A DNA stretch of 64,000 nt from Eleftheria terrae (GTDB lineage Bacteria; Pseudomonadota; Gammaproteobacteria; Burkholderiales; Burkholderiaceae_C): contig NZ_CP106951.1 in the NCBI RefSeq assembly GCF_030419005.1, forward strand, positions 4,278,001 through 4,342,000, written 5' to 3'. A program made the translations under genes and the position numbers. Positions within the stretch are counted from its first letter, which is position 1. Each line of letters begins with the position of its first letter. Below, piece after piece: positions 17,551-35,538 of this stretch. The notes under the pieces are model-generated. The model worked only from the letters and a program-made list of their open reading frames with translations. It ran no database searches and was not told the origin of the DNA.

Positions 17551-17615
17551 GTGAGGTGAGGTGAAGTGAGGTGAGGTGAGGTGAGGTGAGGTGAGGTGAG
17601 GTGAGGTGAGGTGAG
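17551..17615. repeat. GTGAG pentanucleotide microsatellite, 13 copies
   Basis: Thirteen consecutive GTGAG units with one substitution (third unit GTGAA at 17561-17565). The array lies 28 bases after the cyaY stop and about 110 bases before the convergent mrcA stop. The purine-rich strand has no C in the array. The short intergenic remainder to 17727 shows nothing else clear. Confidence 0.95.
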
Positions 17616-28009: not shown

Positions 28010-29119
28010 ATGCTTGCTCCCTACGCCAGCCGTCCCGAACAGTCGCGCGGGCGCCGCCATCCGGAGCCGCCGGCCCCGACCCGCAACGACTACCAGCGCG
28101 ACCGTGACCGCATCGTGCACAGCACCGCGTTCCGGCGGCTGGTCTACAAGACCCAGGTGTTCCTCAACCACGAGGGCGACCTGTTCCGCACCCGCCTCAC
28201 GCACTCGCTCGAAGTGGCCCAGCTGGGCCGCTCGGTGGCTCGAACCCTGGGGCTGCACGAGGATCTGGTGGAGGCGATCGCGTTGGCCCATGACCTCGGC
28301 CACACGCCCTTCGGCCATGCGGGCCAGGATGCGCTGAACGACTGCATGCGCGAGCATGGCGGCTTCGAGCACAACCTCCAGAGCCTGAGGGTCGTGGATG
28401 AGCTGGAAGAGCGCTATCCCGCCTTCGACGGCCTGAACCTCAGCTTCGAGACCCGCGAGGGCATCCTCAAGCACTGCTCGCGTGAAAACGCGCAGCGGCT
28501 CGGTCCGGTGGCTGCCCGCTTCCTGGAGCGCACCCAGCCCAGCCTGGAAGCCCAGCTGTGCAACCTGGCGGACGAGATCGCCTACAACGCGCATGACATC
28601 GACGACGGCGTGCGCTCCGGCCTGCTGACGCTGGAGCAGCTGGAGGAGGTGGACCTGTTCGCCCGCTACCGAGCTGCGGCCTGCCGCGAACATCCGCAAC
28701 TGACAGGGCGCCGGCTGTTGTTCGAGGCCATACGTCGCATGCTGTCTGACCAGGTGTACGACGTCATTGCCAGCACCCGGGCCCGGCTTGCCGAGCACGA
28801 GCCCGCCAGCGCGGACGAGGCACGCCGCCTGCCGCCCCTGCTGTGCTTCAGCGCCTCGATGCAGGCCGACGGCGCGGCGCTCAAGCGCTTTCTGCGCGCC
28901 AACCTCTACCGGCATCCACAGGTCACCGACACCACCAGCCGCGGCAAGCGGGTCGTCAAGGACCTCTTCGAGGCCTACGTTGGCGACCCGGCCCAGATGC
29001 CGCCAGCCTATGCCGGCGCGCCGCGCCTGCACCGGGCGGTGGCTGACTACATCGCCGGCATGACCGACCGCTTCGCCATTCGCGAGCACGAGCGCCTGAC
29101 CCGCCAGCGGCTGTTCTGA
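28010..29119 (+). CDS. dgt: dGTP triphosphohydrolase-like HD-domain protein
   Basis: Probable deoxynucleoside triphosphate triphosphohydrolase (369 aa). HD metal-binding residues are visible in order: H in [14 protein letters not shown] in [28 protein letters not shown] and the final D in [15 protein letters not shown]. The shorter length places it with the Dgt-like type 2 group found downstream of aroB in betaproteobacteria. It begins 14 bases after aroB. The huge hexanucleotide repeat starts 24 bases after its stop. Substrate (dGTP or mixed dNTPs) cannot be settled by eye. Confidence 0.93.
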
Positions 29120-29143
29120 CCCGCCGTCCGCCTGGGCCTGGCC

Positions 29144-29917
29144 CTTGGGCTTGGGCTTGGGCTTGGGCTTGGGCTTGGGCTTGGGCTTGGGCTTGGGCTT
29201 GGGCTTGGGCTTGGGCTTGGGCTTGGGCTTGGGCTTGGGCTTGGGCTTGGGCTTGGGCTTGGGCTTGGGCTTGGGCTTGGGCTTGGGCTTGGGCTTGGGC
29301 TTGGGCTTGGGCTTGGGCTTGGGCTTGGGCTTGGGCTTGGGCTTGGGCTTGGGCTTGGGCTTGGGCTTGGGCTTGGGCTTGGGCTTGGGCTTGGGCTTGG
29401 GCTTGGGCTTGGGCTTGGGCTTGGGCTTGGGCTTGGGCTTGGGCTTGGGCTTGGGCTTGGGCTTGGGCTTGGGCTTGGGCTTGGGCTTGGGCTTGGGCTT
29501 GGGCTTGGGCTTGGGCTTGGGCTTGGGCTTGGGCTTGGGCTTGGGCTTGGGCTTGGGCTTGGGCTTGGGCTTGGGCTTGGGCTTGGGCTTGGGCTTGGGC
29601 TTGGGCTTGGGCTTGGGCTTGGGCTTGGGCTTGGGCTTGGGCTTGGGCTTGGGCTTGGGCTTGGGCTTGGGCTTGGGCTTGGGCTTGGGCTTGGGCTTGG
29701 GCTTGGGCTTGGGCTTGGGCTTGGGCTTGGGCTTGGGCTTGGGCTTGGGCTTGGGCTTGGGCTTGGGCTTGGGCTTGGGCTTGGGCTTGGGCTTGGGCTT
29801 GGGCTTGGGCTTGGGCTTGGGCTTGGGCTTGGGCTTGGGCTTGGGCTTGGGCTTGGGCTTGGGCTTGGGCTTGGGCTTGGGCTTCGGCTTCGGCTTCGGC
29901 TTCGGCTTCGGCTTCGG
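29144..29917. repeat. giant hexanucleotide array: (CTTGGG)x123 then (CTTCGG)x6
   Basis: From 29144 to 29881 the unit CTTGGG is repeated 123 times without a single visible change (738 bases). From 29882 to 29917 it continues as six copies of CTTCGG. The plus strand is therefore GGG-CTT-GGG-CTT, the G3N3 spacing of a G-quadruplex, enough for about 30 consecutive quadruplexes. It lies between dgt and a transposase-like gene. Both strands are open in translation (Gly-Leu or Ser-Pro repeats), but there is no credible start signal, so it is treated as non-coding. It fills nearly all of the 845-base gap between dgt and the next gene. Confidence 0.98.
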
Positions 29918-29922
29918 CTGTA

Positions 29923-29936
29923 AAATGGGGTCAGAC
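29923..29936 (+). repeat. left 14-bp inverted repeat of the RAYT element
   Basis: AAATGGGGTCAGAC, followed by CCATTT, so the left end is itself partly palindromic (AATGGGGTCAGACCCATT with one missing C). It is exactly complementary to the right repeat 779 bases away. Confidence 0.8.
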
Positions 29937-29964
29937 CCATTTCGCCTTCACCCGGCTTACCATC

Positions 29965-30696
29965 TTGGCCCGACTTCCCCGACTGGTGGTCCCCGGACTG
30001 CCCCACCATCTCGTCCAGCAGGGACACCACCACCAACCCGTCTTCGAGACCGACGACGACTACCACGCCTATCTGCAGGCGCTGCGCGATGCGGCGCTGA
30101 CCTACCAGGTGGCCATCCATGCCTATGCGCTGCTGCCCACCGGCGTGCACGTGCTGGCCACCCCGGCCGACGCCACCGGGCTGAGTCGAATGATGCAGGC
30201 GGTCGGGCGGCGTTATGTCGCCTGGCACAACCGCGTGCGCGGGCGGTCGGGCACCTTGTGGGAAGGCCGCTTTCGCGCCACCGTGCTTGATCCTCAAGAG
30301 CATTTGCTGGCCACGATGCTGTACGTGGATACCGCCATACAGCGGGCCGACCCGAGCCTCGACCCTGCCAGATGGCCGTGGAGCAGCTATGCCCACCACC
30401 TGGGACGACGCAGCGAGCCCTTCCTGACCGCGCACCGGCTGTACTGGGCCTTGGGCAACACACCGTTCGACCGTGAGGCGCGGTACCAGGCGCTTGCCGA
30501 GCGGGGCCTGTCGTCCGCGCAACTCCGGCAGATCGGCGACGCCACATGGAAGGGCTGGGCGCTTGGCTCGGCCAGCTTCACGGCCTCCCTTTCACAGGCC
30601 ACGGATCGTCCGCTTGCACCAAGAAAGCGCGGGCGCCCCAAAAAGGACTTAACTCTGTCCCCAATTAAAGATCAGAAGGAGGTCATGAATGATTAA
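29965..30696 (+). CDS. RAYT-like (Y1/HUH) transposase with degraded active site
   Basis: A 243-aa protein recognisable as a REP-associated tyrosine transposase relative: MARLPRLVVPGLPHHLVQQG, SRMMQAVGRRYVAWHNRVRG, TLWEGRF, ARWPWSSYAHHLG, HRLYWALGNTPF and a basic RKRGRPKK tail. Key positions differ from the usual family pattern. The HUH region, normally NHVHLL, reads TGVHVL, so the first metal histidine is a glycine (residue 60). The GRY motif is GRF, and the usual NPVRAG segment is TAIQRAD. The frame is intact. Translation starts at a TTG at 29965 without a good ribosome site. It may be catalytically dead or domesticated. Confidence 0.8.
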   Translation: MARLPRLVVPGLPHHLVQQGHHHQPVFETDDDYHAYLQALRDAALTYQVAIHAYALLPTGVHVLATPADATGLSRMMQAVGRRYVAWHNRVRGRSGTLWEGRFRATVLDPQEHLLATMLYVDTAIQRADPSLDPARWPWSSYAHHLGRRSEPFLTAHRLYWALGNTPFDREARYQALAERGLSSAQLRQIGDATWKGWALGSASFTASLSQATDRPLAPRKRGRPKKDLTLSPIKDQKEVMND

Positions 30697-30701
30697 GTCG
30701 A

Positions 30702-30715
30702 GTCTGACCCCATTT
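30702..30715 (-). repeat. right 14-bp inverted repeat of the RAYT element
   Basis: GTCTGACCCCATTT, the exact reverse complement of 29923-29936. It ends nine bases before a TTGACT hexamer that may serve as the -35 box of gltB. Confidence 0.8.
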
Positions 30716-30723
30716 GTTTTGTC

Positions 30724-30751
30724 TTGACTTGTAAATGGCGCCCGGTATCCT
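30724..30751 (+). promoter_or_regulatory. candidate gltB promoter at the edge of the mobile element
   Basis: TTGACT (30724-30729), a 16-base spacer and TATCCT (30746-30751) lie about 40 bases before the gltB ATG. The -35 box is close to consensus, the -10 box is weak. Its position directly beside the right inverted repeat means the insertion may have shaped gltBD transcription. Confidence 0.4.
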
Positions 30752-30789
30752 CCCGCGTTATCCCTAACGATGATGAGACGGAGTGCGCC

Positions 30790-35538
<4,749 letters not shown>

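Follow-up and report, generated by a model that had tools for sequence, protein, structure and literature searches.

How did a run of 123 identical hexamers come to lie between dgt and gltB in the Eleftheria terrae chromosome, and does it do anything there? We analyzed a window of 64,000 nucleotides, which is the whole stretch of DNA under study. A regular-expression count found 123 perfect CTTGGG units (29144–29881, + strand, 738 bp) adjoining six perfect CTTCGG units (29882–29917, + strand), the second block of a mosaic; this is exactly the composition given in the original prediction. A degenerate edge of 24 bp with CCTGGG- or CCTGGC-like units (29120–29143, + strand) lies to the left. TRF agreed with the count, placing the array at 29133–29919 with period 6, 131 copies, and 99% matches, the top-scoring of nine rows in the window. 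The G-rich strand is the + strand, on which the unit can also be read as GGGCTT. A 24-base stretch of the repeat had 125 matches in the genome and its reversed-pattern control had none, which excludes chance for the array. A coding role was considered and set aside: the frames across the repeat are open (GLGLGL on the + strand, SPSPSP on the − strand), but our home-made gene caller puts no gene there. Ten perfect GTGAG units at 17566–17615 form a second short-unit array within the window.

The array starts 24 bp past the stop (29119) of dgt (28010–29119, + strand), an open reading frame for a dGTP triphosphohydrolase-like protein with the Pfam domains PF01966 (HD) and PF13286 (HD_assoc). On the right side, CTG is followed by TAAAATGGGGTCAGACCC (29921–29938, + strand, with AATGGGGTCAGACCC at 29924–29938), the 5′ flanking motif of a RAYT/Y1_Tnp-like gene; the spacer comparison made this motif the right border of the dgt spacer. 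The RAYT-like gene itself (29965–30696, + strand) has a TTG start and encodes 243 amino acids, and a motif search found an inverted copy of its flanking motif, AATGGGGTCAGACTC, at 30700–30714 on the − strand. Then comes gltB, identified by Pfam as the large subunit of glutamate synthase (30790–35538, + strand). Its start is likely the ATG at 30790 rather than the mechanically called TTG at 30724, to judge from the sequence and from matching starts in congeners. The three genes are co-oriented. A motif scan of 29050–30860 found a sole promoter-like site, TTGACT-16-TATCCT (30724–30751, + strand; mean of 0.2 in shuffles), upstream of gltB and downstream of both the array and the RAYT-like gene. 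The same hexamers, at equal spacing, are readable before gltB in the congeners G002 and G006.

Long runs of this unit are rare. At least eight perfect GGGCTT copies occurred in seven of the 399 family genomes and three of the 398 phylum genomes (own genome in both); as the two sets share 12 genomes by handle, this amounts to 9 of 785 distinct genomes, a count in which long arrays may be missed by draft genomes. The reversed unit, used as a control at the same threshold, was present in one family genome and two phylum genomes. The longest run outside the own genome had 16 copies in the 785 genomes and, by match positions, 12 in the phylum set. In viral contigs, 19 stretches matched the search, and the longest run had 20 copies. 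We inspected seven arrays of 8–16 copies in six other family genomes, and none of these loci matched dgt, the RAYT-like gene, or the start of gltB. The literature matches listed held nothing on (GGGCTT)123 or on a gltB-linked RAYT-like gene, which is no proof of absence.

The corresponding loci of relatives indicate when the array arose. In eight of eight congeners the RAYT-like gene is followed by gltB, and in six of them (not G003 and G004) dgt precedes it. The array was absent from all eight loci, where hexamer runs did not exceed two copies; only one of the eight congeners (G002) had at least four GGGCTT copies anywhere, and these were away from the gltB locus. No hexamer run of three or more copies was found in the 29 relatives' loci that carry the RAYT-like gene. 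Measured from the dgt stop to TAAAATGGGG or a one-base variant of it, the spacer is 801 bp with the array, versus 22 bp in G006, 18 bp in G002, 12 bp in G005, and 5 bp in G008. This comparison covers the four congeners with a motif located by the script; dgt is missing from the locus in G003 and G004. The script found no TAAAATGGGG motif in G001 and G007, but a variant is readable by eye in G001 about 28 bp past the dgt stop, and none was found in G007. The lengths suggest that the array either expanded within a short spacer or took its place. There was no sign at the array of insertion as a mobile block, as judged without a dedicated search for target duplications. The recent expansion proposed in the original prediction is thus supported as a recent origin in the lineage, and (GGGCTT)n, which it suggested looking for at the dgt–gltB junction of related genomes, was found in none of the eight loci.

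The array does not stand alone in its genome. We took a census of perfect arrays with a minimum of 24 bp and four copies in 118 stretches (2.358 Mb, about a third of the genome), leaving out the window and two stretches, L080 and L086, that had been picked by content. The census gave 38 arrays, all with units other than CTTGGG: two with 5-bp units, 16 with 6-bp units, 16 with 7-bp units, two with 8-bp units, and one each with 9-bp and 12-bp units, so that 34 were arrays of 5- to 7-mers. Thirty of the 38 were intergenic according to the home-made gene caller, which assigned 75.8% of the sequence to genes; the nominal binomial p for this excess, 2e-12, is overstated because clustered arrays are treated as independent. 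The longest census array has 146 bp and 20.9 copies, and (GGGCTT)123, with its 738 bp, is fivefold longer. The array is therefore an outlier of the genome's class of short-unit arrays. The model decides whether such a length is to be expected in the tail of that class: among the extrapolated 113 arrays the expected number as long as (GGGCTT)123 is 2e-8 under an exponential and about 0.9 under a power-law tail. Units of 1–4 nt, sought at lower thresholds in 464 kb, gave one (GC)6 and one T9. Prokaryotes are generally poor in repeats of 1–3 nt, as described in the excerpted text of PMC4060949, so this scarcity is weak evidence for mismatch repair. The sample from relatives is thin, with two arrays in 280 kb of G002, none in 120 kb of G008, and none in the 196 kb of 24 named-relative loci.

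The census arrays are also clustered. Twenty-five of the 38 have another within 200 bp (adjoining blocks with different units being counted as separate arrays), whereas random placement of points gave a mean of 0.3 and a maximum of 6 within 250 bp in 2000 trials. Examples are GCCTGCT (20.9 copies) adjoining GCCTGCC (12.7 copies) at L084 13150–13378, and GCCAGT (16.5 copies) with CCAGCT (18.3 copies) at L194 10132–10339. A second long G3-type hexamer array, GGACTG with 14.8 copies, lies at L209 12419–12507. The only other array in the genome with at least four perfect copies of the unit studied here, (CCAAGC)9, is internal, adjoins a (CAAGC)15 array, and lies about 80 kb from (GGGCTT)123. It belongs to a run of different arrays of about 400 bp, called intergenic, at L080 8977–9379 (G000:C2:4226977–4227379), with the successive units TTGGGGA, GGTGTTG, GCCCG, CCGAG, CAAGC (15.2 copies), and CCAAGC (9.0 copies). 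Some neighboring arrays are, like CTTGGG and CTTCGG, a single base apart, or else a single step apart in length; others are not. In the congener G002, TGCTCG, GGCTTG, and GGTTCG blocks follow each other. The CTTCGG block, which had been read as an older or differently mutated border, is therefore of a kind seen in the genome's other arrays and in one congener. Two 7-mer arrays (L087 15739–15861 and L178 17598–17744) lie inside genes according to the home-made caller; as a copy change of a 7-bp unit would shift the reading frame, these may be phase-variable genes or errors of the caller.

Arrays of this sort have been described in other bacteria. The intergenic VNTR/SSR arrays with 6- to 9-bp units of Burkholderia pseudomallei have 4 to 21 copies in the part of the survey available (PMC1853098). 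The arrays of E. terrae resemble them in that units are mostly of 6–9 bp and the arrays are mostly intergenic, clustered, and many per Burkholderiales genome; the difference is the 123 copies reached here. The same source also mentions duplicated repeat regions, longer than 200 bp and in the extreme close to 6000 bp; by total length alone, the array may therefore hold no record. Its densities, 69.9 and 102.1 arrays/Mb against 16.1/Mb here, rest on different criteria and are not comparable (PMC1853098). The quadruplex heptamers GGGNATC of Xanthomonas and Nostoc occur, in the excerpt of PMC4692102, as 2–26 units with a preference for four. They share with our array the short unit with a G3 tract, the non-coding excess, and the capacity to form quadruplexes, and their average 5′ distance to an ORF, 28 nt, compares with the 24 nt that separate our array from the dgt stop (PMC4692102). 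In contrast to these repeats, in which one unit is used genome-wide (PMC4692102), the array is a hexamer with 123 units at a single locus; its unit GGGCTT forms two arrays of at least four perfect copies in the genome, and 28 of the 38 census arrays have no G3 tract. The array is most likely an extreme case of a known kind, the intergenic 6-bp microsatellite.

The RAYT-like gene has a history of its own. Besides the congeners (L041–L048), it precedes gltB at 19 loci from other genera (L009–L022, L024–L027, and L032), namely Massilia, Telluria, Rugamonas, Extensimonas, Delftia, Comamonas, and one Burkholderiaceae MAG; in the Rugamonas locus L012, about 1.2 kb separates it from gltB. This distribution over several Burkholderiales genera indicates that the gene is old at the gltB locus. 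The fetched flank contained dgt in only one of the 19 loci (L015), so among the loci examined the dgt–RAYT order is mainly a feature of the array's genus. The protein scored 39.7 bits against NCBIfam NF047646 (cut-off 80) and, at a looser threshold, 18.1 bits against Pfam Y1_Tnp (cut-off 23); Pfam at E 0.001 made no call for it, and a Y1_Tnp profile search of the genome at E 0.001 found no member. A profile search related it to PDB 4er8 (E 0.0003). The position of the HxH motif reads G60-V61-H62, and Tyr120 is kept. The gene is single-copy and flanked by inverted GGGGTCAGA motifs, and the flanking motif GGGGTCAGAC has two copies only in the genome (at most one mismatch). It is therefore a sequence relative of RAYT/TnpAREP and of the IS200/IS605 Y1 transposases (NF047646; PDB 4er8) with inverted flanking motifs, but differs from them in the lost HxH, the single copy, and a motif that occurs twice instead of as dispersed REP palindromes; it adjoins the array and is not part of it.

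The loss of catalytic residues extends to relatives. Among the nine genomes of the genus, the HxH is kept in none and the Tyr in five, and the match is free of internal stops in all nine. In the 19 gltB-linked loci of other genera the HxH is kept in 15 and all three residues in nine, so that Tyr or HxH is lost in 10. By comparison, H-x-H and Tyr are kept in all 10 loci without gltB in the fetched flanks, five of which are distant (28–30% identity, Clostridia) and one of which (L031) lies on a contig that stops 10 bp past the gene. Pairwise dN/dS of the gene in four genomes of the genus was 0.17–0.31, with dS of 1.0–1.6, near saturation. The gltB-linked protein is likely an exapted dead transposase; that it now binds hairpins as a regulator is a guess. 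The superfamily tree of PMC6006769, as described in the excerpt, took only sequences with HuH and Y, so catalytically degraded lineages would not have entered it.

Several other origins of the array have to be weighed. The array of the cell could be shorter than the published one, if the assembler or polisher had added or homogenized units; the copy number is read from one assembly (four contigs, 7.03 Mb), and its 738 bp are absolutely identical. Four contigs suggest long reads, however, and a short-read graph is expected to collapse a perfect repeat of 738 bp. Several other arrays in the genome are interrupted or mosaic, so there was no blanket homogenization, and we consider inflation of this kind unlikely. 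The G-rich hexamer with G3N3 spacing does recall eukaryotic telomeres, but the telomere-like role once suggested for it is contradicted by its place, 4.307 Mb into a contig of 5.456 Mb and between co-oriented genes, and by the internal position of the nine-copy array of the same unit; that it is a telomere or replicon-end repeat is hardly credible. The original prediction had also linked the array to the adjacent HUH-type transposase, as whose product or substrate it might be seen. Such an enzyme is next to the array, and Y1 transposases need single-stranded DNA, of which the lagging strand is an important source in the excerpted text of PMC6006769; here, the G-rich strand probably serves as the lagging-strand template. 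Yet the gene sits at gltB without the array in the 19 loci of other genera and in the eight congeners, the HxH is gone throughout the genus, and one single-copy gene faces arrays spread genome-wide, which makes this origin very improbable.

A functional quadruplex or R-loop element is a further alternative. Either the (GGGCUU)n transcript or the (GGGCTT)n non-template strand would fold and attenuate transcription from dgt into the RAYT-like gene, both of which have the G-rich strand as their non-template strand. As originally noted, the array satisfies the sequence rule for G-quadruplexes, four G3 tracts with loops of 1–7 nt, its loops being of 3 nt. ViennaRNA favored the quadruplex for (GGGCUU)4, with −12.6 kcal/mol against −9.4 without it, but for (GGGCUU)8 the values were −27.0 and −26.0, a near-tie with a GC/GU hairpin that arises because the unit also self-pairs through GC and GU. 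When DNA folding was computed with quadruplexes disallowed, the G-strand gave a weak hairpin not clearly better than those of shuffles (z −0.97). No terminator-like site was found between dgt and gltB, where shuffles gave 5.2 on average, which counts in favor of this reading. Against it, the congeners do without the array, and gltB has a promoter-like site of its own downstream, so it need not depend on transcription that crosses the array; the insulation between dgt and gltB proposed earlier is not supported. G3 content was also tried as a driver of array length and rejected, since the census arrays with G3 tracts on either strand (n = 10) were not longer than the others (n = 28; one-sided Mann–Whitney p 0.85). 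The quadruplex potential is real as far as the sequence goes, and the evidence does not make a quadruplex the cause of growth. A functional role of this kind seems to us quite improbable.

The array is very probably an intergenic microsatellite (a VNTR-type SSR) that expanded in place in the short dgt–RAYT spacer. The perfect units, the position in a spacer, the congeners without an array, the block of a one-base variant, and its rank as the largest of many arrays all argue for this reading, which draws on one isolate of the species, a sampled third of the genome, and a home-made gene caller. Its growth would have begun with a small G/C-rich seed, through slipped-strand mispairing or template switching. 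Mismatch repair corrects loops of up to about 4 nt, and loops of 5–7 nt largely escape it. Such an escape would fit both the unit sizes of the census and the presence of mutS and mutL homologues, which scored above the family cut-offs; loss of mismatch repair was rejected as the cause, as both homologues are present. The only mutL match above the cut-off lies on a 784-kb contig (G000:C3:129510–131156), and mutS is on the 5.46-Mb contig C2. The dnaA gene at C2:3,492,507–3,493,928, together with the cumulative GC skew calculated over the sampled stretches (minimum at about 3.456 Mb, maximum at about 0.65 Mb), places the array, at 4.307 Mb, in the rightward replichore, where its G-rich + strand would be the lagging-strand template. 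Folding and slippage could be favored there, although the explanation needs no quadruplex. The array most likely has little function, as it follows dgt and precedes a promoter-like site able to serve gltB alone; read-through from dgt into the RAYT-like gene may be affected, and that would be the most that it does.

A more active variant of expansion can be conceived, in which a process of the lineage seeds and rewrites intergenic arrays of 5–7 bp, with the unit shifting by about one base along the clusters. (GGGCTT)123 would then be an array in runaway growth, driven by folding of the G-strand on the lagging template, and its length would change within a culture. We regard this variant as doubtful; if true, eukaryotic repeat expansion would have a counterpart in bacteria, one that goes beyond the 20–30 units seen in the surveys consulted. 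A separate question is why a transposase relative persists beside gltB once its catalytic residues are gone. If the length is real, it is several times above the maxima in the available parts of the published surveys (21, PMC1853098; 26, PMC4692102) and in our scans (16 and 20), and the locus would allow one to study, in a natural setting, how a long quadruplex-capable repeat arises and is tolerated in a bacterium with mismatch-repair genes.
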